Of a stretch of DNA of 35,506 bases, positions 1 to 35,506 are shown one piece after another. The notes below the pieces were generated by a model. That model had not been told where the DNA came from and made no database searches. It worked only from the letters and a program-made list of their open reading frames with translations. This DNA is from Magnetococcales bacterium DCbin4 (GTDB lineage Bacteria > Pseudomonadota > Magnetococcia > Magnetococcales > UBA8363), in assembly GCA_002753735.1 (NCBI GenBank), contig PEAN01000041.1, forward strand, positions 1-35,506, given 5' to 3'. The translations under genes were made by a program, and so were the position numbers. Each line of letters opens with the position of its first letter. Position 1 is the stretch's first letter.

Positions 1-3000
1 CGGCAGTCTCCTCGGGAACGCTCCTCGTCTCCGTCGCACCCGACGCCGATGCCCCGACCCTGGTCCTCCATGATGCCGCAGGGACCGAAGATCAGCCGAT
101 TGCACTCGACCTCGGCGCCGCACTGACCGACATCGACGGTTCCGAATCCTTGGCCATCACCATTCTGGGCATTCCGGAAGGGGTGGAACTCTCCTCCGGG
201 ATCGACAACGGCAATGGATCCTGGTCACTCAGCGCCTCGGACCTGGAACATCTCACCCTGACCCCACCTGCCGGTTCAGACATTGCATTTTCTTTGACCG
301 TGGCCGCGACCAGTACCGACGGCACCGATTCCGCCACCACCCTGGGAACCGTCCATGTCAGCTTCGCACCCGATGCCGATCCCCCTGCCCTGACCTTGAA
401 CCCTGCCAGCGGCGATGAAGACCAGGCCATTCCCCTGGACATTTCCGCCACCCTGACCGACCTGGATGGTTCCGAATCCCTGGCCTTTACCATCGCCGGA
501 ATCCCCGATGGCGCGTCACTTTCCGCCGGCATCGACAATGGCGATGGTACCTGGACCTTGAGCTCGGATGACCTCCATGGCCTGACGATCCCCCCTCCAG
601 CCGATTCCGATGCCGACTTCGATCTCACCATCACTGCGGTTTCCACCGAAAACCAGAATGGCGACACCGCATCAGTTACGGGTACCCTTCATGTTGATGT
701 CACCGCGGTCGTCGATGACCTGAACCTGACCGCAGTCGATGCCTCAGGCGCTGAAGATACCGCCATTCCCCTGGACATTCAGTTCAGCCTGAATGACATC
801 GATGGCTCTGAATCCCTGTCGGGAGACATCATTCTCACCGATATTCCAGAGGGTGCCAGCCTGAATATCGGAGTGCCCGGAGCGGACCATACCTGGATCA
901 TCTCCCAGGACCATTTGAGCGTCGTTGCCACCAACAGTTCCGGAGATGCCATCACCTGGTCCATTCCCGGCCTGACCCTTACCCCCCCGAATCACGATGC
1001 GACTGATTTTTCCCTTGGAATTCAAGTCAGCACCATGGATGGCAATCAGGATACGCAGTTGTTTTCCAGCAGCCTGGAAGTTTCCGTCGATGGCGTGACC
1101 GACACAGCCGACCTTTCCCTCACCAACGCTGCCGGTCTGGAAGATACCCCGATCGCCCTGGATATCAACCTGGCCCTGCGTGACACCGATGGATCGGAAT
1201 CATTGTCCGGCGATATCGTCCTGACCCGGATTCCCGGCGGTGCCACCTTGAACATCGGCAGTGCCGGTACCGAAGCGGGCACCTGGGAAATCCCCCAATC
1301 GGCACTGGCGGTCGCAGCCACCAATGCCGCCGGAACCCCGGTTGCCTGGACCATTCCCGGACTGACCATGACCCCTCCGGCCAATTCCAATGAAGATTTC
1401 ACCTTGGGCATCCGCGTCGCTACCGCGGAAAACGGAGCGGTCGTCACCACAGAGGGGACATTCCAGGTTGAAGTCGCAGGGGTCGCCGATGCCCCCGAAC
1501 TGAATGCATCCATCGGTCTGAGTTCGATCATTCTGATGCCGGATGCCAACGGGGACGAACAGGAAGTGTACCAAGCCCCGCTGACCATTGAATCGGCGTT
1601 GACCGATGTGGATGGTTCTGAAACCCTGGCTTTGACCATCCAGGGGTTGCCTGCCGGGGCGGAACTGTCGGCAGGGGTCCGTCATCCCGATGGCACATGG
1701 AGCCTGACCCCCGCCGAGATGGAAGGATTGACCGTCACCGTCCCCAAGGATTCAGGAGATCCCACCTTCGAGCTCGCCATCACCGCCACCACCACGGAAA
1801 ACGACGGCGATACCCGGTCGGTCACCGCGCAATTGAATGTCGATTTCACCGATGATTTCAATCCCCGGGCCCAGAACGATACCGGGACCACCCAATCGGC
1901 GACCCCGGTCACCATCGACGTCCTGGCCAACGATACCAGTCCCTCCGGACAAACCCTTTCGCTCCAGGAGGTCTCGGGGGCATTGCACGGAGATGTGACC
2001 ATCGTGGATGGCAAACTGGTCTACACCCCCAACGAAAACTTTACCGGGGTGGAAAACCTGACCTACACGGTCACCGACCCGAACGGCAACACCGATACCG
2101 GTTCCGTGGTCGTCAGCGTTGGCACAAAGATCAATGTCCAGGAAGTGCTGGAAAGCGGTGTCACCTGGCCGGGTGCGACCGATACCGCCGACAAGACCAC
2201 CATCAATACCAGTGATGGCGTCGCCGACACCGTCAACGCCGAACTTTATCCTGAAGGGGGGAGCATCACCCTTACCATCACCGCCCAGGCCCCGGCCGGC
2301 AGTCTGCCCGATGCCCTGGATGTCTATCTGCTCCAGGATCTCACCGGATCCTACAAGGATGATATCGCCACCATCCGGGGGACACAAAGTACCACCAACG
2401 ATGCAGGCGATCTGGGCATTTTGGACAACCTGGTCCAGGGGGTCAACGATCTGGTCCCCGATTCCAAGTTTGGCATCGGTTATTTCAAGGATCCCGTCGC
2501 CGGCGCGGATGGTTCCGGCCGGGATGGACTGATCCATAACCTTGACCTCAAAGCGGACACCACCGGTTCCTATCTGGATGGCACCAAGACCGGCAAAGGT
2601 TATGACAGCTTTTCAGCGGATGGTGGGCAGGGGGGCAATCCCAACGAAGACCAGATCACCGCCCTGAATGATGTCGCCAAAGCGGCGCTGAACAATGAGT
2701 ACGGCTTCCGGAGCGGCGTTCCCAAGGTGGTGATCGTGGCCACCGACGCCCCTTCCGATACCACGGCGGCGGAAATCGCCGAATGTGCCGCCAACCTGGA
2801 GGCAGCCAACATCATTCCCATTTTCCTGGTCGCCGATGGCTGGGCCAATCTGGATGAGATGGGATTTTATGATGACATCGTTTCGCAATTGGGACGGGGG
2901 GCGACCGTTGAATTGAGCCTCACTTCCGACAACCTGGTCGAAGCGGTTCGCGCCGGTATTCAGGAAGCGGTCGGCAACATACAACTCAACATTGAAGGTG

Positions 3001-3674
3001 ACGAATATGGGTATGCCAAAGTCGTCGATCACAACGCCACCGGCGACGGGCTGCATACCTGGACCGTTCAACTGGATGCCGCACTCAATGAAAGTCATAC
3101 CGCCGATTCGCTGCAATTGACCGTCACCGATGCCGATGGCAACGAAATCGGCACCACCACCACCGTCAACGTCACCCCCCGGATTGATCTCGGGGGTACC
3201 GATTACAACGACCTGCTCACCGGTCACCAGGGGGACAACGACATCGAGGGCGGAACGGGCGATGACGTCATCCAGGGTCTCGGTGGCGCCGATCTGCTTG
3301 ACGGCGGTGCGGGCAACGACACCCTGACCGGCGGTGAAGGTGACGACACCCTGACCGGCGGCGCGGGCAACGACCTCATGGATGGTGGCGTCGGCAATGA
3401 TCTGTTCATCTTCGGTTCCGGTTCCGGGCATGACACCGTCTCCGGCGGCCCGGGTGACGGTTGGCTCGACAGCATTCAATTGCAGGGCGTGCAGGCTGGC
3501 CCTTCGACCACGCTGACCGATATCGGCGACTGGACCCTGGATACCAACGCCTCCTATACCATCGACTCGGTCAACCATACCATCGACTTCACTGAAGAGG
3601 GGGCAACGGGAACCATTCAACTGTTCGACGGCAGTGAGATGACCTTCACCGATGTCGATCAGATTCGGTGGTGA
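1..3674 (+). CDS. RTX/T1SS-type giant adhesin, 3' part (5' end outside window)
   Basis: The frame is open from the first complete codon at position 3, so the true start lies upstream and only the C-terminal ~1,220 residues are seen. About five tandem modules of roughly 100-120 residues (to about position 1850) each carry an EDxxIPLDI-like opening, a DxDGSESL motif and a GTW(T/S)L-type motif. These resemble the T1SS-143/cadherin-like repeats of large secreted adhesins. A VCBS/tandem-95-like Ig module follows (about 1860-2120). Next is a von Willebrand A/integrin-beta-like domain (about 2310-2980) with a MIDAS-like DLTGS motif. Then come about eight RTX nonapeptides of GGxGxDxLx type (about 3190-3440) and a C-terminal tail typical of type I secretion signals. 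Expected role: calcium-dependent surface adhesion after export by a T1SS (family knowledge). No transporter genes are in view. The stop at 3672-3674 is followed within six bases by a palindromic repeat. Confidence 0.9.
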   Translation, partial: AVSSGTLLVSVAPDADAPTLVLHDAAGTEDQPIALDLGAALTDIDGSESLAITILGIPEGVELSSGIDNGNGSWSLSASDLEHLTLTPPAGSDIAFSLTVAATSTDGTDSATTLGTVHVSFAPDADPPALTLNPASGDEDQAIPLDISATLTDLDGSESLAFTIAGIPDGASLSAGIDNGDGTWTLSSDDLHGLTIPPPADSDADFDLTITAVSTENQNGDTASVTGTLHVDVTAVVDDLNLTAVDASGAEDTAIPLDIQFSLNDIDGSESLSGDIILTDIPEGASLNIGVPGADHTWIISQDHLSVVATNSSGDAITWSIPGLTLTPPNHDATDFSLGIQVSTMDGNQDTQLFSSSLEVSVDGVTDTADLSLTNAAGLEDTPIALDINLALRDTDGSESLSGDIVLTRIPGGATLNIGSAGTEAGTWEIPQSALAVAATNAAGTPVAWTIPGLTMTPPANSNEDFTLGIRVATAENGAVVTTEGTFQVEVAGVADAPELNASIGLSSIILMPDANGDEQEVYQAPLTIESALTDVDGSETLALTIQGLPAGAELSAGVRHPDGTWSLTPAEMEGLTVTVPKDSGDPTFELAITATTTENDGDTRSVTAQLNVDFTDDFNPRAQNDTGTTQSATPVTIDVLANDTSPSGQTLSLQEVSGALHGDVTIVDGKLVYTPNENFTGVENLTYTVTDPNGNTDTGSVVVSVGTKINVQEVLESGVTWPGATDTADKTTINTSDGVADTVNAELYPEGGSITLTITAQAPAGSLPDALDVYLLQDLTGSYKDDIATIRGTQSTTNDAGDLGILDNLVQGVNDLVPDSKFGIGYFKDPVAGADGSGRDGLIHNLDLKADTTGSYLDGTKTGKGYDSFSADGGQGGNPNEDQITALNDVAKAALNNEYGFRSGVPKVVIVATDAPSDTTAAEIAECAANLEAANIIPIFLVADGWANLDEMGFYDDIVSQLGRGATVELSLTSDNLVEAVRAGIQEAVGNIQLNIEGDEYGYAKVVDHNATGDGLHTWTVQLDAALNESHTADSLQLTVTDADGNEIGTTTTVNVTPRIDLGGTDYNDLLTGHQGDNDIEGGTGDDVIQGLGGADLLDGGAGNDTLTGGEGDDTLTGGAGNDLMDGGVGNDLFIFGSGSGHDTVSGGPGDGWLDSIQLQGVQAGPSTTLTDIGDWTLDTNASYTIDSVNHTIDFTEEGATGTIQLFDGSEMTFTDVDQIRW

Positions 3675-3679
3675 ACGAT

Positions 3680-3856
3680 AAAAAAAAGGGGTCTCAAGGG
3701 ATTGCCCCCAGGGTGTTGATTTTAGAAACCAAGTCAAAATCGGAACATGGAAACCTTTTTGTTTAAAATCAAAATCAAAGTCCTGGGGGCAATCCCCCAG
3801 ACCCCTTTTTTCTTTCAATATTTTTATACATATCAGTCAAATGCCAGTCATTTTTT
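3680..3856. repeat. Two-armed palindromic repeat, copy A (inverted orientation)
   Basis: Left arm 3680-3713 is an A-tract plus GGGGTCTCAAGGGATTGCCC with a CCAGGG extension. Right arm 3781-3811 is its near reverse complement and ends in a T-tract. The spacer contains GGAAACCTTTTTGTTTAAAA, which is the reverse complement of the spacer in the copies at 5528 and 20321, so this copy lies in the opposite orientation. The AT-rich tail 3812-3856 matches the outer flank of the 25487-25995 copy. It separates convergent genes and reads as an intrinsic terminator for the + strand at its right arm and for the - strand at its left arm. Confidence 0.85.
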
Positions 3857-5502: not shown

Positions 5503-5527
5503 GACCGGTTGACATGCAAAATAATGA

Positions 5528-5680
5528 TTAAAAGAAAAAAGGGGGCTTAAGGGATTGCCCCAGGGTGTTGACTTTGATTTTGACTTTAAACAAAAAGGTT
5601 TCCATGCTTAAGCTTTTGACTTTGTTCCTAAAATCAACACCCTGGGGGCAATCCCTCAAGCCCCCTTTTTTTTCTTGATC
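5528..5680. repeat. Two-armed palindromic repeat, copy B
   Basis: Left arm 5528-5567 is an A-tract plus GGGGGCTTAAGGGATTGCCC. Right arm 5634-5680 is CCTGGGGGCAATCCCTCAAG followed by CCCCC and a long T-tract. The spacer has GACTTTGATTTTGACTTTAA then ACAAAAAGGTTTCCATG. It lies between convergent genes. On the minus strand, the TGATCAAG outer end of the right arm supplies the TGA stop of the NUDIX gene. It is probably a bidirectional terminator as well as a dispersed element. Confidence 0.9.
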
Positions 5681-6161
5681 ATTTTTTTCCCGATGCCTCC
5701 AGCCAGTCGGCAACGGCAAGACCGGTACCAAACGACCATGCCTTCATTTTTTCCCGGGGAATGATCTTGAAGGCGTCCAATTCTTCATTGAGGGTGATAT
5801 CCCCCTCGGCCTGGAGATGGTAGGCAATGATGAGTTGGTTGGATTTGGCATAGGGATAGATCCCGACCAGTGTCGGTTGTCCCGGAGTCAGACCCAATTC
5901 TTCACTGGTTTCACGCCGGGCCGCCTGTGCCGGATCTTCGCCCGCCTCCAGGAAACCGGTGATGATGGAAAATGCCTTTTTCGGCCAGGAAACATGATGG
6001 GCCAGGACCACACCGTCGGGGGTTTCGACAATCACCGCCACCACCGGCACCGGGTTATTCCAAAAGACAAAACCACATCCCGCATCGGGACAGACCTGAC
6101 GTTGCTGTTGATCCACGGTCCGGGTGATGGTCTCCTTGCCACATTGGGGGCAAAAACGCAT
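5679..6161 (-). CDS. NUDIX hydrolase with N-terminal zinc ribbon
   Basis: The protein has 160 residues. Cys4, Cys7, Cys24 and Cys29 form a zinc-ribbon pattern. A full Nudix box Gx5Ex7REUxEExGU is present (Gly69, Glu75, Arg83-Glu84, Glu87-Glu88), so the metal-binding catalytic helix is intact. This layout resembles the C-terminal half of NudC-like NADH pyrophosphatases and small zinc-ribbon NUDIX enzymes that hydrolyse nucleoside-diphosphate compounds; the substrate is unknown. The start at 6161 has GGAG seven bases upstream, and an in-frame ATG at 6203 would overlap miaA. It lies 17 bases after miaA and is probably co-transcribed. Its final Lys-Lys and stop abut repeat copy B, so the C-terminus may have been set by the repeat. 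Confidence 0.9.
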   Translation of the reverse strand: MRFCPQCGKETITRTVDQQQRQVCPDAGCGFVFWNNPVPVVAVIVETPDGVVLAHHVSWPKKAFSIITGFLEAGEDPAQAARRETSEELGLTPGQPTLVGIYPYAKSNQLIIAYHLQAEGDITLNEELDAFKIIPREKMKAWSFGTGLAVADWLEASGKK

Positions 6162-7135: not shown

Positions 7136-7217
7136 AAAACACCCCCGGTCACCTCAACAAAAAACGTTGCCAACAGGACCTTGCACAAGGCACCATGTTT
7201 TCCCAGATGGGAACAAT

Positions 7218-7275
7218 GATCAAGATAAAAAAGGGGTCCGGGGGATCGCCCCCCGGGTTTTGACGTTTCCGATCC
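7218..7275. repeat. Single-arm palindromic repeat, copy C
   Basis: ATGATCAAG-type outer end, A-tract, GGGGTCCGGGGGATCGCCCC hairpin and a GGGTTTTGACG tail. The hairpin stem differs from the other copies but stays self-complementary. It lies between divergently transcribed miaA and the SDR gene. Its T-tract orientation would terminate minus-strand transcription, that is, readthrough toward the miaA start. Confidence 0.75.
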
Positions 7276-7288
7276 AAAGAAAACCCAA

Positions 7289-8020
7289 ATGTTACTCAAC
7301 AATCAAATCACCCTGGTGACAGGGGCCGGATCCGGCATCGGCCAGGCGGTGGCAGAACTTTTGGCCCGGGAAGGGGCCTGGGTCATCCTCCTGGGACGGA
7401 CCCAGAGCAAACTGGAAGCGACTGCGGATCGGATCGGCAATGCCGGTGGCCGGGCGAGCATCGCCCCGCTGGATCTGGAGAATGGCCTGAACCGGGTTCC
7501 GGAGGTGGTACAGGCCATCCACGAACGGTTCGGTCGCCTGGATTTGTTGGTCAACAATGCGGGAACGCTGGGGACGCTGACCCCATTGGAACATTTGGAT
7601 GGGGTCCTTTGGGAACAGGTGTTCCGGATCAACGTGACCGCCCCTTTTTTCCTGACCCGTGAACTCTTGCCCCTGCTGAAAAAAAGTGCTGCCGCCTCGG
7701 TCATCAACGTGGTTTCGAGCGTCGCCTTCAAGGGACGGGCCTTCTGGGGTGCCTATGCCGCTTCCAAGGCGGCGCTGGTCAACCTGACCGAAACCTGGTC
7801 GGGAGAACTTTCACGGCAAGGGATCCGTTTCAACACCGTCAACCCCGGTGCCACCGCCACCGCCATGCGCGCCCAAGCCTATCCGGGAGAGGATCCGGCG
7901 ACCCTCCCCACCCCCGAACAGGTGGCCCGGGTCTTTTTATATCTGGCCTCCGATCTATCCAAGGAGGTCCATGGCCAACACCTCAACGCCCGCGATTGGT
8001 TGACCTGGCAGCCACACTGA
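7289..8020 (+). CDS. SDR-family NAD(P)-dependent oxidoreductase
   Basis: This 243-residue classical short-chain dehydrogenase has the cofactor motif TGAGSGIG (residues 11-18), NNAG, a catalytic Ser in NVVSSVA and YAASK with Tyr156 and Lys160. It resembles the YciK-type subgroup in overall sequence, but the substrate cannot be assigned. Its 3' end overlaps the convergent cyclase gene by 38 bases. Upstream spacing is short and contains repeat copy C, so its promoter is within or next to that repeat. Confidence 0.92.
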   Translation: MLLNNQITLVTGAGSGIGQAVAELLAREGAWVILLGRTQSKLEATADRIGNAGGRASIAPLDLENGLNRVPEVVQAIHERFGRLDLLVNNAGTLGTLTPLEHLDGVLWEQVFRINVTAPFFLTRELLPLLKKSAAASVINVVSSVAFKGRAFWGAYAASKAALVNLTETWSGELSRQGIRFNTVNPGATATAMRAQAYPGEDPATLPTPEQVARVFLYLASDLSKEVHGQHLNARDWLTWQPH

Positions 8021-9104
8021 TATCCCAGTCTAAGATCTTGAATAGTTCAAACCTTCCCGGAATATTCTTTATATCAGATATGACTTCAATACGTATTAAC
8101 GAAAAGTCACTTTCAATTCTTGCTTTTGTTGGTTGAGAAACCACAATCTGCCCTTTCCCGGAGCGATCCGCAATCCTGGACGCAAAATTGACACTCGGTC
8201 CCAAAGCCGTGAACTGATCCCTGAAATCAGTTCCAACATTTCCAACAATCGCCTCCCCCGTATGGATACCACATCCAAGACCTATATCAATTTCCTGTGC
8301 AATATAGAGCATCCACTCTTTCTTCCACTTCTCTAGAACTTGATCAAATTCTTTCTTGAAATCAAGAGCGGCCTGAACACAATGAATCGCATCCTCCTTT
8401 CCTTGATCATCCTTGTGATTGAACACACCAAAAAGGGCCATGATCCCATCGCCAATAAAATTATCGACAATCCCATGATGCTTGAAGATTATCTTTGATC
8501 CCGTTTCAAAATAATCCTTCAGGAAAGCAGAAATAAGCGTAGGATACGCTTTGAGGGATTCGCAAAGTTGTGAAAATCCCCTGATATCCCAAAATGCAAT
8601 CGTGACCAATCTTTCAGATACTGAAAGAATGGAAGGATCCCTCTCAATCACATTGAATACTTTTGGATCAAAATACCGACGCATGAAATTAATGTTCTTC
8701 ATTGATTCGCGAAATTTAAGGGCTGCTCTTGTTTTAATATTTATTTCCCTTGATGCCGTCGTACCGCGAATGTTTTTCTCGACCACATCAAAAGCACCAA
8801 AATCAAAAGCAGCAAAACGGTCAAGACTTTTTTCTTTTGCTGTAAATAATATTGTCATGACAAACGGATCCAACTGCTTTGCAAATTGTAAAACATTCAT
8901 TCCGCTCTTTTCATCTTCCATGACCAAATCTGTTAAGACAACATCAACCGGATCTTTAACCGTCAGTTGAGATTCAAGCAGCTTTTTTCCTTCAGTCTCA
9001 TTGTTTGCGGTCAGAATTTCCCATTCAGGATTTTCATCCTGCAAGGCACGTTTGAGGGAATCCAGATTTTCTTGTTCATCGTCGATGATCAATATGCGTG
9101 ACAT
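7983..9104 (-). CDS. Response regulator fused to class III adenylate/guanylate cyclase
   Basis: The protein has 373 residues. The N-terminal receiver domain (about 1-125) has Asp8-Asp9, phospho-acceptor Asp59 in LTDLVMEDE, Thr88 and Lys110. The C-terminal class III cyclase domain (about 160-345) has metal-binding Asp173 (FWDIRGF) and Asp219 (FIGDGIMALFG), and the NxxxR transition-state pair in LGPSVNFASR. Catalytic residues therefore look intact; adenylate versus guanylate specificity is not clear. Phosphorylation by the upstream kinase would be expected to tune cyclic nucleotide output (inference). It starts three bases after the kinase stop codon, indicating translational coupling. Codon and base composition are AT-rich relative to neighbours, and its 3' end runs 38 bases into the convergent SDR gene. 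Confidence 0.92.
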   Translation of the reverse strand: MSRILIIDDEQENLDSLKRALQDENPEWEILTANNETEGKKLLESQLTVKDPVDVVLTDLVMEDEKSGMNVLQFAKQLDPFVMTILFTAKEKSLDRFAAFDFGAFDVVEKNIRGTTASREINIKTRAALKFRESMKNINFMRRYFDPKVFNVIERDPSILSVSERLVTIAFWDIRGFSQLCESLKAYPTLISAFLKDYFETGSKIIFKHHGIVDNFIGDGIMALFGVFNHKDDQGKEDAIHCVQAALDFKKEFDQVLEKWKKEWMLYIAQEIDIGLGCGIHTGEAIVGNVGTDFRDQFTALGPSVNFASRIADRSGKGQIVVSQPTKARIESDFSLIRIEVISDIKNIPGRFELFKILDWDISVAARSTNRGR

Positions 9105-9107
9105 TGT

Positions 9108-10880
9108 TTATCCCACCGCCAACGATTTTGGTAAAAAAATCTCGAAATCAACACCTTTTCCAGGTTCTCCCGATTCGATGATCCCTCCCCCATGACCATC
9201 GATAATTCGACGCACCAAAGCAAGTCCAAGACCCGTCCCATGATTGTTTGTTGTAAAAAAAGCATCAAAGATTTTAGTCTTGTTGGCAATGGGTATTCCC
9301 ACCCCAGTATCACAGAAATGAATCAGAACATAATCAGCACTTGAGTCCAAAAAATTTGGCAACGGACTCGGCGCATAAGACAAAATCGTAATTGTTATCT
9401 TTTTTTCTTCCTTATCAAACCAACAGGTCGAGTTCCTGACCAGTTCATCGAAACAATCGGTAAGTTTTTCAGCATCGCCCATGATCTCGACAGGACCAGA
9501 ATCAAGGTACTCAATCTTTGCCTCGATACCCATCCTTGATATGATTTTGCGAGTCTCATCGTTTAAAATGGATTGTAAATTGAGTCTGTCTATTCTTATT
9601 TCCTGGGCCTTTGTCAAAGACTTGAACTGTTCGATGATCGCCTTTGCTTTATCGATGCTTTTACGGTAATTGGCAATGATTTCATTGACCTCCTCTTTTC
9701 TGTCTTCCCGAATTCTTTTTGCAAGTGGATCCAAATCGGTTTCAATGGCAAAAATAGGATTTCCTATCTTGTGTGCAGCAGCAAAGGCAATATCCTTCCA
9801 TACCGAATCACGTTCTGCACGAACACGTCTATTTTTCTCTGATTCCAATTCATTGATCAGCGCCAACTGACGTTCCGATAATGCGATATTCTCAAGATAT
9901 AAAATTTCATACGTCTTTCTCGTTTTTGAGCCAACTTGACCTTCCTTGGAGAAATATTTATATCCAATATTGGGATATTTTCGGACCAGTGATGATAGAT
10001 AATTCTGATCCCATATGCGAGTTCTGATATTGATACCCCCCTTCATGAAGCGTCTGCTTGCGTTTGCGTCACGAGCAAGATACTTTGAGGCATCGCTGTC
10101 ACCAGGAATCATGAAAAGTATCGTAACGTTTGTATTGGCACCTTTCCGAAGAATCGAATCTAAATGGTCTGTATATCGGAAAACTCTGTGGATAAGGTAG
10201 TCAAACTCAGGAAACACCTTCGTGTCAGAACCCACGGAAACAAACCAAATTTCATTGAATTCAAAACCATCTGGATCCTTTCTTGGATATTCGGCAACCA
10301 AATCAATTTCTCTTAATTCCTTGCCCCAGTCAAGCCGACGAAATCCCATCTGTAATAAGAGTTCCTTGCAAAGATTTTCAATATCCCTTTCCGAAAGGCG
10401 ATCCCAATCAACAGAAAAAGTAACAGGGCCTTTAAAACCGTACTGACTTGGAAAAAGGCGAAATACATTAAGATATTCTATAATTTTTTGCTCAAGATCG
10501 TGAATCTCGTGTTCACTGTATCGAACCATTCTGTATTCGCGCAAAGAATGCGGCAACATCACGCTACTGATGGAAATCCCCCTGGACATGAGGAGTATTC
10601 CTTTCCCCATTGCCTGGGCCAATCCGATCATATAAACAACATCAAGATTTAAATTGCTGATGTCTGCCAGGATACAGTCAGATTGTGCCAATTCCCCGAT
10701 GAATTCATCTCTGAATGAATCTCCAGGAACAATCACATCATGGAAAAAAAAAGGAATGTATCCAGATTTTTCCAAACTTGACTGGATGGCATCAACCACT
10801 CGATTATTTGTCTCAAGGTATTGAGACGGAAGCGCCACGAAACATCTAAGATTATTTTTATAGGTGTCCTGCTCGATCAT
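9108..10880 (-). CDS. Hybrid sensor histidine kinase with deoxyribosyltransferase-like and nuclease-fold-like N-terminal domains
   Basis: The start at 10880 (590 residues) is preferred because AAGGG lies nine bases upstream; an alternative ATG is at 10901. Residues 11-100 resemble the nucleoside 2-deoxyribosyltransferase/TIR-like fold: CFVALP, SDCILADISNLNLDVVY, GLAQAMGKGILLMS. The family's usual YELG glutamate is replaced (YMIG, Ile85). Residues ~160-250 look like a PD-(D/E)xK-type segment (Glu173, Asp193 in REIDLV, Glu210-Ile-Trp212) in which the usual Lys is Trp, so it is probably inactive. A coiled region leads to an H-box with His370 (AAAHKIGNP). N box (DELVRNST), G box (DTGVGIP), F/G2 region (FFTTNNHGTGLGLAL) and the Bergerat fold are complete. 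No membrane segments, so it is cytosolic. Partner: the adjacent cyclase response regulator. The gene is AT-rich and lies between repeat copy D and the SDR gene. Confidence 0.85.
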   Translation of the reverse strand: MIEQDTYKNNLRCFVALPSQYLETNNRVVDAIQSSLEKSGYIPFFFHDVIVPGDSFRDEFIGELAQSDCILADISNLNLDVVYMIGLAQAMGKGILLMSRGISISSVMLPHSLREYRMVRYSEHEIHDLEQKIIEYLNVFRLFPSQYGFKGPVTFSVDWDRLSERDIENLCKELLLQMGFRRLDWGKELREIDLVAEYPRKDPDGFEFNEIWFVSVGSDTKVFPEFDYLIHRVFRYTDHLDSILRKGANTNVTILFMIPGDSDASKYLARDANASRRFMKGGINIRTRIWDQNYLSSLVRKYPNIGYKYFSKEGQVGSKTRKTYEILYLENIALSERQLALINELESEKNRRVRAERDSVWKDIAFAAAHKIGNPIFAIETDLDPLAKRIREDRKEEVNEIIANYRKSIDKAKAIIEQFKSLTKAQEIRIDRLNLQSILNDETRKIISRMGIEAKIEYLDSGPVEIMGDAEKLTDCFDELVRNSTCWFDKEEKKITITILSYAPSPLPNFLDSSADYVLIHFCDTGVGIPIANKTKIFDAFFTTNNHGTGLGLALVRRIIDGHGGGIIESGEPGKGVDFEIFLPKSLAVG

Positions 10881-10895
10881 GATCGGATGCCCTTC

Positions 10896-10965
10896 GGGCA
10901 AAAAGTCAAAAGCAAAACCCTGGGGGCAATCCCTTGGGACCCCTTTTATTCTTGATCATTTTATT
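10896..10965. repeat. Single-arm palindromic repeat, copy D
   Basis: AAAACCC, then TGGGGGCAATCCCTTGGGAC with a CCC-T-tract and a TTCTTGATCATTTT end. It lies between the fliI stop and the start of the AT-rich kinase operon, both on the minus strand. The G/C hairpin is intact. The T-tract reads on the + strand. Confidence 0.8.
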
Positions 10966-10978
10966 CGATACCCCAACC

Positions 10979-12337
10979 TCACCGCATCCCCTTGCCGGCG
11001 GTGTTGGGTTTGGTATTGAAGATTTGCGTCATCATCGCCAGGCTTTCGGCCATGGAACACCCCTGTCGAACCGGTTGCCGCAAAAAGGCACGGATCGGTT
11101 CGATCAGTTGGATCGACCGGTCAATGCGCGGGTTGCTCCCGGGGACATAGGCACCGATGTTGATCATGTCCTCGGCACGGACATAGGAGGCCAGGGATTC
11201 GCGTACCTGCCCCGCCCACCGGATCTGCTCCTCATCCACCAGATCGGTCATCAACCGGGAAATGGAGGCCAGGACATCCAGTGCCGGATAATGGTTGGCA
11301 GAAGCCAAATCCCGCGACAGGACGAAATGGCCGTCCAAAATACCACGAACCGCATCGACGATGGGATCCTGAAGGTCATCCCCCTCCATCAACACCGTAT
11401 ACAATCCAGTAATGCTGCCGTTGCCCTGATCCCGCCCCGCCCGCTCCAACAGCCGGGGCAGCAACATGAACGTCGAAGGGGGATAGCCACGGCTGGTTGG
11501 CGGTTCACCCCTGGCCAATCCGATTTCCCGTTGCGCCATGGCGAAACGGGTCACCGAATCCATGAGCAACAAGACATGCTTTTCCTTGGCCCGAAAATAT
11601 TCTGCAATCGCCGTCGCCAGAAAGGCGGCCCGCAACCTGAGCAAGGGTGGCTGATCCGAAGTGGCCACCACCACCACCGACCGCGACATCCCTTCGGGTC
11701 CCAAATCCTTTTCCAAAAATTCCACCACCTCCCGTCCCCGTTCCCCCACCAGACCGATGACATTGACATCCGCCTCGGTGTACCGGGCCATCATGCCCAG
11801 CAACGTGCTTTTGCCGACACCCGAACCGGAAAAAATACCGATCCGTTGCCCCCGACCCAACGTCAGCAAAGCATTGATCGCACGGATGCCGATGTCCAAA
11901 GGTTGATCGATACGGCGACGCAACATCGGATTGATGGGATCGGAATAGAGCGGCATCCATTCATGCGTATGAATGGGAGGACCGTTGTCGATGGGTTGAC
12001 CCAAAGGACCCAAAACCCGGCCCAACAGTTCAGGCCCCACCCCCACCTTTTCCGACTGGCTTTCCGAAACGATCAGACTGCCGGGATGGATCCCCTTGAG
12101 GGAACCCAACGGCATCAACAATAATGAATTATTCCGAAAACCGACCACTTCCGCCTTGAGCGGTTCCGCATCCCCATCGGGAATCACTTCGCACAGGTCA
12201 CCAATGGAAGCCGCCGGACCGGAACTTTCAATCAACAGCCCCACCACCTGTGATACCCGGCCGACACGGCGCAATCCCAGCCCCATCCTGGCACTGGTTG
12301 CATATTCATTCCATGGAATCTGACAGGATTCGATCAT
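10979..12337 (-). CDS. fliI: Flagellar export ATPase FliI
   Basis: This 452-residue protein matches the family length. Walker A GSGVGKST is at residues 171-178, followed by LVGERGREVVEF, the Walker B-type strand VLLLMDSVTRFAMAQREIGLA and the GEPPTSRGYPPS motif conserved in FliI/YscN ATPases. FliI hexamers couple ATP hydrolysis to export of flagellar type III substrates and act with FliH. The start overlaps the fliH stop by four bases (ATGA), indicating translational coupling. It is the last gene of the flagellar block, followed by repeat copy D. FliJ, which usually follows, is not present. Confidence 0.98.
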   Translation of the reverse strand: MIESCQIPWNEYATSARMGLGLRRVGRVSQVVGLLIESSGPAASIGDLCEVIPDGDAEPLKAEVVGFRNNSLLLMPLGSLKGIHPGSLIVSESQSEKVGVGPELLGRVLGPLGQPIDNGPPIHTHEWMPLYSDPINPMLRRRIDQPLDIGIRAINALLTLGRGQRIGIFSGSGVGKSTLLGMMARYTEADVNVIGLVGERGREVVEFLEKDLGPEGMSRSVVVVATSDQPPLLRLRAAFLATAIAEYFRAKEKHVLLLMDSVTRFAMAQREIGLARGEPPTSRGYPPSTFMLLPRLLERAGRDQGNGSITGLYTVLMEGDDLQDPIVDAVRGILDGHFVLSRDLASANHYPALDVLASISRLMTDLVDEEQIRWAGQVRESLASYVRAEDMINIGAYVPGSNPRIDRSIQLIEPIRAFLRQPVRQGCSMAESLAMMTQIFNTKPNTAGKGMR

Positions 12338-17995: not shown

Positions 17996-18084
17996 GGTCG
18001 GTTCCTCCAGGTGGTCCAATCCGACCACCATCATTCCGGGTTGGGATGGCAGAGTGTAACGCCAGCCATACGGGTGATGTAGAA

Positions 18085-18137
18085 ACAAAGTCAAAACCCT
18101 GGGGGCAATCCCTTAAGCCCCCTTTTTTTTCTTGATC
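18085..18137. repeat. Single-arm palindromic repeat, copy E
   Basis: CAAAGTCAAAACCC then TGGGGGCAATCCCTTAAGCC plus CCC, a T-tract and CTTGATCA. On the minus strand the TGATCAAG outer end supplies the TGA stop of hemL (18136-18138). The T-tract reads on the + strand, so it would stop antisense transcription entering hemL. Confidence 0.85.
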
Positions 18138-19422
18138 ATGATGCCAACGTCTTGATCACCCGATCCGCCGCCGCGATGGTGGCATCGATCACCGCATCGT
18201 CATGGGCCAGGGAGAGGAAGCCCGCCTCGAACTGGCTGGGGGCCAGATAGACCCCTTCGCGCAACATGCCATGGAACCATTGGCGAAAACGGTTCAAATC
18301 GCTGGTTTTGGCATCTTCAAACTGATGCAATGGTTTTTTGTCGGTGAAAAAGAGACCGAACATGGAACCGACACGGGTCGAGGTATGGGGAATGCCAGCA
18401 TCGGTCAGGAGGCGGTCCAGGCCATCGCACAGGCGCTGGCAGCGCCATTCCAAGGTTTCATAGCACCCCGGCCGGGACAGAATCTCCAACGTCGCCAACC
18501 CCGCAGCGGTCGCCAGGGGATTGCCCGAAAGGGTACCCGCCTGATACACCGGTCCCGAAGGGGCGATCTGTTCCATCAGGTCACGCCGCCCCCCATAGGC
18601 CCCCACCGGCAGGCCGCCGCCGATGATCTTGCCCAGGGTGGTCAGATCGGGGGTGATGCCGTACAGCTCCTGGGCACCCCCCGGGGCGACACGAAACCCG
18701 GTCATCACCTCGTCGAAGATCAACAGGGTTCCATGACGCCGGCACAGCGCGGCCAGCCCTTGGAGAAATCCCGGTTTCGGTGGAATGCACCCCATGTTGC
18801 CCGCTACCGGTTCAACAATGACCGCAGCGATACCGGCGGTATGGCGTTCAAACAGGGAAGTCACTGCGTCCAGATCGTTGTAGGGCAGCGTCAATGTTTG
18901 TTCCACCGTCGCCTTGGGGACCCCGGGTGATGATGGAACGCCGAAGGTGGCCAAACCCGAACCCGCCTTGGCCAGGAACGCATCGCCATGGCCGTGATAA
19001 CACCCCTCAAACATCAACAGGCTGTCCCGACCCGTTGCCGCACGGGCAAGACGAACCGCGCTCATGGTCGCCTCGGTCCCCGAATTGACCAGACGCACCA
19101 TCTCCATGGAGGGGACCAGGGCGACGATTTTTTCCGCCAGACGGACTTCCGCCTCGGTGGGGGTGCCAAAGGAGGCCCCGCGACGCATCGCCTCCTGAAC
19201 CGCCGCGACCACTTCGGGATGGGCATGCCCGACGATCATCGGCCCCCAGGAGCCGACATAATCGATATAGCGACGGTTGTCCACATCGGTCAACCAAGCC
19301 CCTTCGGCGCTCTGGATGAAAGGGGGGATTCCGCCCACCGCCTTGAAGGCCCGTACAGGAGAATTGACCCCACCGGGAATGAACCGTTGTGCATTCTGGA
19401 AAAGTTGTTCTGATCTGGACAT
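18136..19422 (-). CDS. hemL: Glutamate-1-semialdehyde 2,1-aminomutase
   Basis: This 428-residue PLP enzyme of the C5 pathway makes 5-aminolevulinate from glutamate-1-semialdehyde. Family signatures are [11 protein letters not shown] near the N-terminus, the [15 protein letters not shown] segment and the PLP lysine Lys265 in [17 protein letters not shown]. The start at 19422 gives the canonical MxxSExLF N-terminus; an upstream ATG at 19488 adds a non-homologous leader. The ribosome site before 19422 is weak. The presence of hemL implies the C5 rather than the Shemin ALA route, although most classical Alphaproteobacteria use ALA synthase. Confidence 0.97.
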
Positions 19423-19563: not shown

Positions 19564-20319
19564 TTGGCCAGTCAAGACACGGATCGCTGGGATCCCTCAG
19601 AGGTGATGGCATTGCTTGAAACAGGGGGCGATCTGGAGACCCGGGACAGTGAAGGATGGACCCCATTGCATCGGGCGGTTCAGGAGGAAATGGAAAAATT
19701 GGTCCTACGCCTGTTGCATGCGGGAACGGATGTCAATGTCACGGACCACTACCTGTGGACCCCCTTGCATTGGGCCACGGTACGCGGCAATCCTTCCCTG
19801 GTTCAAATGTTGATTCAGCACGGTGCCAAGGTCAATGTGACCGACCTGGATCTGGAAACACCCCTCCATTGGGCTGCCTCCTGGAACCATGTCGAAGTGG
19901 CACGAATCCTCCTGGACCATGGCGCCGACATGGAAGCGCCTGATCGTTATGGCGATACCCCGTTTTATCAAGCCTGTCAGGAGGGGAGTCTGGAAGTGGC
20001 ATTGCTGCTGCTGGAACGGGGTGCCCGCATGGATGTGAGCAACCTGGAAGGCAACCAACCGCTTCATTGTGCCATCTTTTTTGGTCATGAAGAGATCACC
20101 GACCTGTTGATCTCCCGGGGAATCAATGTCAACGGCCTGACGCCCAAGGGACGGACCCCGCTGCACCTGGCGGTGGAACGCAATCATATGGACCTGGTGA
20201 ACCAACTTTTACATGCGGGTGCCGATCCCACCATCAAGGATCATACGGGAGAAAATCCTGAAGATTTGGCGGTTCGGCTGGGCGATGGGGTGGTCGCACA
20301 ACGCCTGAAAAATATTTAA
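19564..20319 (+). CDS. Ankyrin-repeat protein
   Basis: This 251-residue protein consists almost entirely of about seven ankyrin repeats with the TPLHxA consensus (TPLHRAVQEE, TPLHWATVRG, TPLHWAASWN, TPFYQACQEG, QPLHCAIFFG, TPLHLAVERN). It starts at TTG (19564) with GGAGG six bases upstream; the first ATG is about 14 codons later. There is no signal peptide or membrane segment, so it is probably a cytosolic protein-binding module. The partner is unknown. It is divergent from hemL and convergent with dnaQ. Confidence 0.93.
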   Translation: MASQDTDRWDPSEVMALLETGGDLETRDSEGWTPLHRAVQEEMEKLVLRLLHAGTDVNVTDHYLWTPLHWATVRGNPSLVQMLIQHGAKVNVTDLDLETPLHWAASWNHVEVARILLDHGADMEAPDRYGDTPFYQACQEGSLEVALLLLERGARMDVSNLEGNQPLHCAIFFGHEEITDLLISRGINVNGLTPKGRTPLHLAVERNHMDLVNQLLHAGADPTIKDHTGENPEDLAVRLGDGVVAQRLKNI

Positions 20320-20320
20320 A

Positions 20321-20467
20321 AGAAAAAAGGGGTCTCAAGGGATTGCCCCCGGGGTGTTGACTTTGATTTAGACTTCAAACAAAAAGGTTTCCATACTTTA
20401 TCCTTTGAATTTGTTTCTTAAATCAACACTCTGGGGGCAATCCTCCAGATCCCTTTTTTCTTGATCT
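20321..20467. repeat. Two-armed palindromic repeat, copy F
   Basis: Left arm 20321-20354: A-tract, GGGGTCTCAAGGGATTGCCC, CCGGGGTGTTGA. Right arm 20423-20466: AAATCAACACTCTGGGGGCA then ATCCTCCAGATCCC and a T-tract with CTTGATC. The spacer shares ACAAAAAGGTTTCCAT with copy B in the same orientation. It lies between convergent genes and starts two bases after the ankyrin stop codon. Confidence 0.88.
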
Positions 20468-25416: not shown

Positions 25417-25626
25417 TGTCCCCAAGGAAAAAAGGGGTTCAGCCTGCGCGGGAATGATGGAGAATGATTGTCCCATAAAAAATTAATTCTACTTTGTTAC
25501 ATTCATTAACTGAAGAGGATGGCTGGCAATTGACTGATATGCATAGGAATATTGAAAGAAAAAAGGGGGCTTAAGGGATTGCCCCCAGGATTTTGATTTT
25601 GTTTTTCACGCGCCATTTCACCCGAA

Positions 25627-25843: not shown

Positions 25844-25999
25844 TTCGGGTGAAATGGCGCGTAAAAAACAAAATCAAAATCAAAGTCAAAGTCCTGGGGG
25901 CAATCCCTTAAGCCCCCTTTTTTCTTTCAATATTCCTATGTATATCAGTCAATTGCCAACCATCCTCTCCAGTTAATGAATGTAACAAAGTAGAAGTAA

Positions 26000-30607: not shown

Positions 30608-30822
30608 TTCTACTTTATCACATTCATTGATCAGGGATTATTGACATTCAAAAAATGATTGAAAGAAAAAAGGGGGCTTAAGGGATTGCCCCCAGGGTTT
30701 TGATATCGCTATTGCATCCCCCATGGGGTTTCGGGGTGGTGAAACCCCGCACGGTTTTTCCTTGGGGATACGAAATTCAAAACCCTTGAGAAAATCCCCA
30801 AAGACCCCGTCCATTCTTGGAT
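30608..30822. repeat. Degenerate two-armed repeat, copy I
   Basis: The left end matches copies G and J (TTCTACTTTATCACATTCAT, ATTGAAAG, A-tract, GGGGGCTTAAGGGATTGCCC). The spacer carries a different hairpin, GGGGTTTC / GAAACCCC (30725-30748). The right arm (about 30777-30815) is decayed: CAAAACCCTTGAGAAAATCC then CCAAAGACCCC. It ends at the acyl carrier protein stop and fills most of the 313-base gap upstream of the DUF2157 gene, which otherwise shows no gene. Confidence 0.75.
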
Positions 30823-35385: not shown

Positions 35386-35506
35386 TTCTACTTTGTTACA
35401 TTCATTAACTGGAGAGGATGGCTGACAATTGACTGATATACATAGGAATATTGAAAGAAAAAAGGGGGCTTAAGGGATTGCCCCCAGGACTTTGACTTTG
35501 ATTTTG
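35386..35506. repeat. Left arm of palindromic repeat, copy J (cut by window end)
   Basis: It begins at the base after the HD-GYP stop codon with TTCTACTTTGTTACATTCAT and follows the right arm of copy G (reverse complement) almost base for base, through AATATTGAAAG, the A-tract, GGGGGCTTAAGGGATTGCCC and CTTTGACTTTGATTTTG. The rest lies beyond the window. Confidence 0.9.

Follow-up and report, generated by a model that had tools for sequence, protein, structure and literature searches.

What might a soluble histidine kinase with enzyme-like sensor domains perceive, and to what end would it signal to a receiver fused to a nucleotidyl cyclase? The question is raised by two adjacent genes on contig PEAN01000041.1 (assembly GCA_002753735.1) of Magnetococcales bacterium DCbin4, of which a stretch of 35,506 nucleotides is hereafter called the window. 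The reading we favour, with a probability of about one in two, is that of a self-contained, horizontally acquired cytosolic two-component system with a cyclic-nucleotide output, in which the sensor is built from enzyme-derived domains. The genes, their domain families, the residue losses, the conserved linkage and the insertion are established. The features of the pair are as follows.

9108..10880, minus strand: soluble sensor histidine kinase of 590 amino acids (P0001); open reading frame, HATPase_c in Pfam (E=1.5e-15), best sequence match in the Protein Data Bank (PDB) the ZraS kinase core
10455..10856, minus strand: N-terminal domain of the kinase (residues 9-142) with nucleoside deoxyribosyltransferase (NDT)/DNPH1 fold, TIR-like; AlphaFold, Foldseek, phmmer and TIR_2
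10629..10631, minus strand: ATG codon of Met84, which stands in place of the catalytic Glu (E104 of human DNPH1); alignments to Rcl and to relatives with canonical YELG/YEIG
9966..10412, minus strand: putative degenerate Mrr-type PD-(D/E)xK-like domain of the kinase (residues 157-305); hhalign to a home-made Mrr_cat profile and Pfam Mrr_cat
9591..9800, minus strand: DHp phospho-acceptor region (residues 361-430) with His370 in AHKIGNP; sequence and orthologue alignment
9126..9479, minus strand: HATPase_c catalytic domain (residues 468-585); Pfam
7983..9104, minus strand: receiver-class III nucleotidyl cyclase of 373 amino acids (P0002); open reading frame, Pfam, PDB sequence matches CyaB (E=5e-24) and CyaC (E=3.5e-23)
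8766..9095, minus strand: receiver domain with phospho-acceptor D59; Response_reg (E=1.1e-13)
8610..8702, minus strand: linker with MRRYFDPKVFNVIERDPSIL, conserved in three orthologues
8103..8609, minus strand: class III (IIIb-like) cyclase domain; Guanylate_cyc (E=2.2e-17) and alignment with CyaB/CyaC
8460..8462, minus strand: Asn215 at the position of the base-selecting Lys; alignments, with Lys in CyaC and in the orthologues of genome G008 and of the Nitrospirota metagenome-assembled genome L020

Both open reading frames are present and are separated by a gap of 3 bp. Pfam assigns HATPase_c to the kinase, and Response_reg together with Guanylate_cyc to the second protein; no transmembrane or extracellular sensor family was detected in the kinase. 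The kinase boxes (His370 in AHKIGNP, Asn, G1, F and G2) are present, the DHp region of an orthologue, which reads AHRIGNP, is matched by HisKA in Pfam at E=1.9e-5, and the receiver residues D8/D9, D59, T88 and K110 are all in place. Judged from these motifs, the phosphorelay residues are complete, and the hallmarks of a two-component system are found on both sides, a His with HATPase_c in the kinase and an acidic pocket with an acceptor Asp in the receiver. The initial annotation had placed the two genes at these coordinates, three bases apart, and had described a complete histidine kinase and a receiver-cyclase fusion; the open reading frame calls, Pfam and the key residues bear this out.

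The N-terminus of the kinase had been likened in the same annotation to deoxyribosyltransferase/TIR-like folds, and this likeness is now well supported. Residues 1-155, searched as an isolated domain, match TIR_2 in Pfam at E=9e-4; the nucleoside deoxyribosyltransferase family is matched weakly (E=0.22), and phmmer aligns the domain with rat Rcl/DNPH1 at E=0.002. AlphaFold, supplied with four remote homologues, returns a model with a predicted local distance difference test score (pLDDT) of ~80 across residues 9-142, and all 50 of the PDB matches listed by Foldseek for this model are DNPH1 or MilB (E 3.5e-6 to 6e-5), with target-normalised template modelling scores of ~0.6-0.75. A nucleoside deoxyribosyltransferase/DNPH1 fold of the kinase N-terminus is thus well supported by the model. 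Relatives carry the motif N(P/L)NVxYE(L/I)G, which reads NLDVVYMIG in the window kinase, so that the catalytic Glu is replaced by Met84, a change that had gone unremarked earlier. In human DNPH1 the glycosyl intermediate is formed by E104, and an E104Q variant binds the substrate but leaves it uncleaved (PMC10603095). Where the rat protein has its catalytic Asp (D69), the phmmer alignment places Phe60, and acidic residues stand one and two positions earlier; the loss of this Asp appears less certain than that of the Glu. Because the Glu is replaced, the domain is probably a ligand-binding module and not an enzyme.

Relatives of this domain occur in other settings. Among the closest are proteins encoded at L044 2004-4340, on a prophage contig, and at L079 4977-7370, on an Ochrobactrum plasmid, in which an NDT/TIR-like N-terminal domain, apparently a second copy of it and a P-loop ATPase are combined and the catalytic Glu is kept. 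A related N-terminal domain is found at about L046 1986-2420, and at L008 472-1908 an NDT/TIR-like domain with intact Glu is fused to a histidine-specific methyltransferase-like (EgtD-type) domain.

With hmmscan the middle domain of the window kinase matches Mrr_cat at E=0.14, below the Pfam cut-off, and the middle domain of the G008 kinase alone has no Mrr match in Pfam. A query profile of these two sequences was aligned by hhalign with an Mrr_cat profile made by us from related genomes; 112 of 114 columns are co-linear, with E=2.5e-4 and a score of 22.8, against a best score of 15.8, over 33 columns, in 150 column shuffles. In a set of protein segments, six scored higher (52-158), the level to be expected of segments of the fetched Mrr loci, and the next reached 14.4. 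The helix 1 Glu of Mrr_cat is conserved and Asp193 of the Mrr motif is retained, whereas (Q/E)xK has become SVGS in the window kinase; the Lys is also missing in G008. We consider it quite probable, from the profile comparison, that the segment is a dead PD-(D/E)xK-like domain. The PD-(D/E)xK-like segment proposed at the outset is moderately supported, and the loss of (Q/E)xK is an addition to that proposal. Calsequestrin-like PDB matches, which a profile search with the middle-domain alignment also produced, involve only ~30 acidic residues and were taken as chance.

The same data bear on the view that the pair is an ordinary metabolic or redox two-component system, in which the middle domain would be an unrelated alpha/beta sensor and its Mrr likeness accidental. 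Such a view draws on the weak Pfam value, on the missing match in G008 and on a single-sequence AlphaFold model with a pLDDT of 38; yet both homologues align co-linearly with the Mrr profile from end to end, and do so above all 150 shuffles. This explanation is unlikely.

In the cyclase domain, the metal-binding Asp173 and Asp219, the Asn306/Arg310 pair and T299 at the second base-selecting site are present. The linker between receiver and cyclase we take to be a cyclase transducer segment. The domain thus carries the metal Asp, Asn/Arg and Thr features of a class IIIb adenylate cyclase of CyaC type and departs from it at the base-selecting Lys, a departure not remarked on in the initial annotation. 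This Lys is the base-selecting residue of class III adenylyl cyclases (PMC4215837). With Asn215 in its place, activity or product may differ from cyclic AMP (cAMP); substrate and product are uncertain, and cAMP is probably the product. Cyclase activity, product and direction of control are putative. Differences between the window cyclase and that of L020 are concentrated at third codon positions (0.64 versus 0.29 and 0.17), which is consistent with long-term selection on the cyclase protein. The genome holds 39 matches to cNMP_binding (PF00027), the domain binding cyclic nucleoside monophosphates (cNMP), so that a cyclic nucleotide would find receivers in the cell.

All kinase orthologues found, those of the window, G008 and L020, are linked to a cyclase gene, with gaps of 3, 7 and 24 bp, respectively. 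The kinase and cyclase genes are linked and co-inherited; rare adjacency, the finding that was to speak against a pair, is not what is observed. G008, which belongs to another family of the same order, is the only other carrier of the kinase among 48 genomes of the class, and shares with the window 62% identity in the cyclase and 39% over the common part of the kinase. The L020 cyclase is 64% identical to that of the window, and the C-terminal third of its kinase 58% (59% in another comparison). The L020 kinase is cut off at a contig edge, where, going upstream, its sequence gives way to unrelated DNA of 121 bp. In our own reading, L020 1-121 on the reverse strand resembles the start of an IS3-type transposase (MERIPNGKYTKEFREEAAKL); a Pfam scan of 20 residues from this contig end gave no match. 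The L020 kinase is probably interrupted, by an IS3-like element. A fourth genome, G026, retains a cyclase remnant of 145 amino acids only, and this remnant is adjoined, at L019 6830-7661, by a small gene pair resembling a nucleotidyltransferase and a HEPN-type partner. At the thresholds used, searches of 398 genomes from the window's phylum and 396 from that of L020 found no further orthologue. The global scan consisted of two short peptide patterns, so more copies may exist. Weaker matches (L021-L024, 24-35%) and a plasmid match (H9) were set aside as other receivers or kinases, non-orthologous where inspected.

The position of the pair in the window is recent, as the following features indicate.

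8014..11006, no strand: inserted segment of ~2.99 kb; in three congeners (G006, G007 and G004) fliI and a short-chain dehydrogenase/reductase (SDR) gene are directly convergent
10902..10961, no strand: dispersed repeat resembling repetitive extragenic palindromic (REP) elements, at the edge of the insert that faces fliI; by blastn, two copies lie in the corresponding intergenic site of G004

The empty site of the three congeners measures 97 to ~230 bp between the aligned fliI and SDR flanks, and the GC content of the pair is 41%, against 55-62% in the flanking SDR and fli genes. The 3' end of the cyclase gene extends 38 bp into antisense SDR sequence, which gives the protein a C-terminal tail, WDISVAARSTNRGR, absent from the orthologues. 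On these comparisons the pair is a recent horizontal acquisition and mobile. The repeat also occurs at the empty site of G004 and was possibly used in the insertion. We also note that REP-like repeats, or repeats like bacterial interspersed mosaic elements (BIME), with units of ~50-110 bp, are dispersed in both orientations over the window (3682-3825, 5518-5688, 7212-7263, 10902-10961, 18080-18139, 20308-20462, 25550-25604, 25869-25932, 30650-30704 and 35449-35506).

Since the kinase gene lies 98 bp downstream of fliI and in the same direction, and the minus strand shows no clear terminator in the interval, the pair might be a regulator of flagellar motility that is co-transcribed with fliFGHI and acts on motility through cAMP. 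This is very unlikely and was rejected as the principal explanation: the insertion is recent, the congeners have no pair at this site, and the G008 and L020 copies lie away from flagellar genes. The recent acquisition makes the flagellar position probably incidental, a reflection of a permissive site.

A recent insert could also be a decaying or non-functional passenger. The displacement of the cyclase stop into SDR sequence, with a tail that the orthologues lack, would fit such a passenger, as would Asn215, the lost catalytic residues, the probable insertion-sequence disruption in L020 and the remnant in G026. Both open reading frames are nevertheless intact, every phosphorelay residue is present, and the third-position bias relative to the Nitrospirota cyclase is strong; decay is a rather improbable account.

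In the reading that we favour, a two-component system with enzyme-derived sensor domains, an intracellular cue would be read by the kinase through the catalytically dead Mrr-type nuclease-like domain. The window copy would also sense through its DNPH1/deoxyribosyltransferase-fold domain, which, without the nucleophile, would bind and not cleave a nucleotide-like ligand. The cue would change autophosphorylation at His370. From there the phosphate would move to D59 in the neighbouring receiver, which would in turn switch the fused class III cyclase. The cyclic product, probably cAMP, would act on the many cNMP-binding proteins of the host.

Several points weigh against this scheme. The G008 kinase lacks the DNPH1-like domain, which thus cannot be the general input of the module. 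The restriction endonuclease-like assignment of the middle domain rests on two sequences plus a profile comparison, and the AlphaFold model of that domain is uninformative. His370 is followed by Lys (by Arg in G008), where an acidic residue is usual, and Asn215 replaces the substrate-selecting Lys of the cyclase. Lastly, the truncation in L020 and the remnant in G026 mean that the module is dispensable. A more specific form of the scheme is put forward tentatively, as possible but unlikely: a cytosolic alarm, in which a dead nucleotide hydrolase and a dead restriction endonuclease domain would detect abnormal (deoxy)nucleotides or foreign or damaged DNA and, through the His-Asp relay, raise a cyclic nucleotide, possibly of altered base specificity (Asn215).

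A role in sensing phage or stress, which the initial annotation had considered logical, finds no support. In an anti-phage version the dead domains would sense phage DNA or modified nucleotides, by a logic like that of Detocs or Pycsar, and the cyclic nucleotide would trigger protection elsewhere. For inactive restriction endonucleases, a role as decoys or in sensing invasive nucleic acid has been proposed (PMC12839542), and Detocs is a defence system of the histidine kinase/response-regulator type (PMC11728103). The pair is mobile, rare and patchily distributed; its mobility and rarity, together with the dead nucleotide/DNA-enzyme domains, agree with published ideas on conflict systems (PMC12839542). 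Relatives of the N-terminal domain include the proteins with two NDT domains and an ATPase on a prophage contig and a plasmid. Against this stands the genomic context, since no effector gene lies beside the pair and no recognisable defence genes are found next to the copies in the window, G008 or L020. Flagellar and SDR genes flank the pair in the window, WcbI-like and acyl-ligase-like genes in G008 and, judged from translations, housekeeping or signalling genes in L020. The kinase has no PADLOC match. The PycC matches that PADLOC gives for the window cyclase are equalled by ordinary receiver-cyclases of Sinorhizobium and Microvirga, after which control they were rejected as evidence for Pycsar. 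In phage genomes and viral contigs there is no match to the pair or to the sensor region except for distant NDT-like domains. Both enzyme-like domains have lost catalytic residues, and the deoxyribosyltransferase-like one is missing from the G008 kinase. We regard an anti-phage role as a tentative possibility on the unlikely side.

Should the sensor reading be true, two folds of nucleotide- and DNA-metabolism enzymes would have become inputs of a His-Asp relay whose output is a diffusible messenger, and the use of dead enzymes as sensors, a theme of bacterial conflict systems, would be joined to two-component signalling of the classical kind. Being mobile and only 2.9 kb in size, the module lends itself to tests of its input and output in a laboratory host. 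Elsewhere in the window, positions 150-3674 encode an RTX/cadherin-like secreted protein of 1174 amino acids.

Among known systems, Detocs (DtcABC) follows two-component logic with a receiver-linked output. The window pair shares this logic, but it has a cyclase as output in place of a nucleotide-degrading effector and lies in no defence context; the insert holds two genes only, with neither a DtcB-like buffer receiver nor an effector-fused DtcC. With Pycsar the pair has in common a class III cyclase and a TIR/NDT-superfamily domain within one module. In Pycsar, PycC is accompanied by an adjacent PycTIR or PycTM effector, whereas the window pair has no effector neighbour, its cyclase is receiver-linked, and its TIR-like domain is on the kinase and lacks the Glu. 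The individual sensor domains resemble enzymes. The middle domain shares with Mrr_cat restriction endonucleases the co-linear profile alignment and the conserved helix 1 Glu and Asp193, and differs in the missing (Q/E)xK and the fusion to a histidine kinase; residues 9-142 share the fold of DNPH1/Rcl and MilB, and differ in Met84, in Phe60 at the rat Asp69 position and, again, in the kinase fusion.

Plasmid operons of Sinorhizobium and Microvirga, in which a histidine kinase gene is followed by a response regulator and a receiver-cyclase, likewise place a receiver-cyclase downstream of a kinase. Their cyclase is ~25% identical to that of the window, they contain an extra single-domain receiver and have genes for ABC-transporter substrate-binding proteins nearby, and the Sinorhizobium kinase is of HAMP/GAF type. 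CyaC-type proteins (Arthrospira/Anabaena) have a receiver beside a class III cyclase. For cyanobacterial CyaC, control by a histidine kinase has been described (PMC4284465). CyaC is among the solved cyclases closest in sequence, and CyaC and other receiver-linked class IIIb cyclases share the Thr at the second base-selecting site. In contrast to CyaC, the window pair has a separate kinase gene, Asn for Lys at the first base-selecting site and other sensor domains. The pair had initially been called undescribed-looking; pairs of kinase and receiver-cyclase as such have been described, in CyaC-type systems and in the operons above. The sensor architecture, a kinase with two apparently enzyme-derived domains paired with a receiver-cyclase, is new, and the kind of system to which it belongs is known and CyaC-like.

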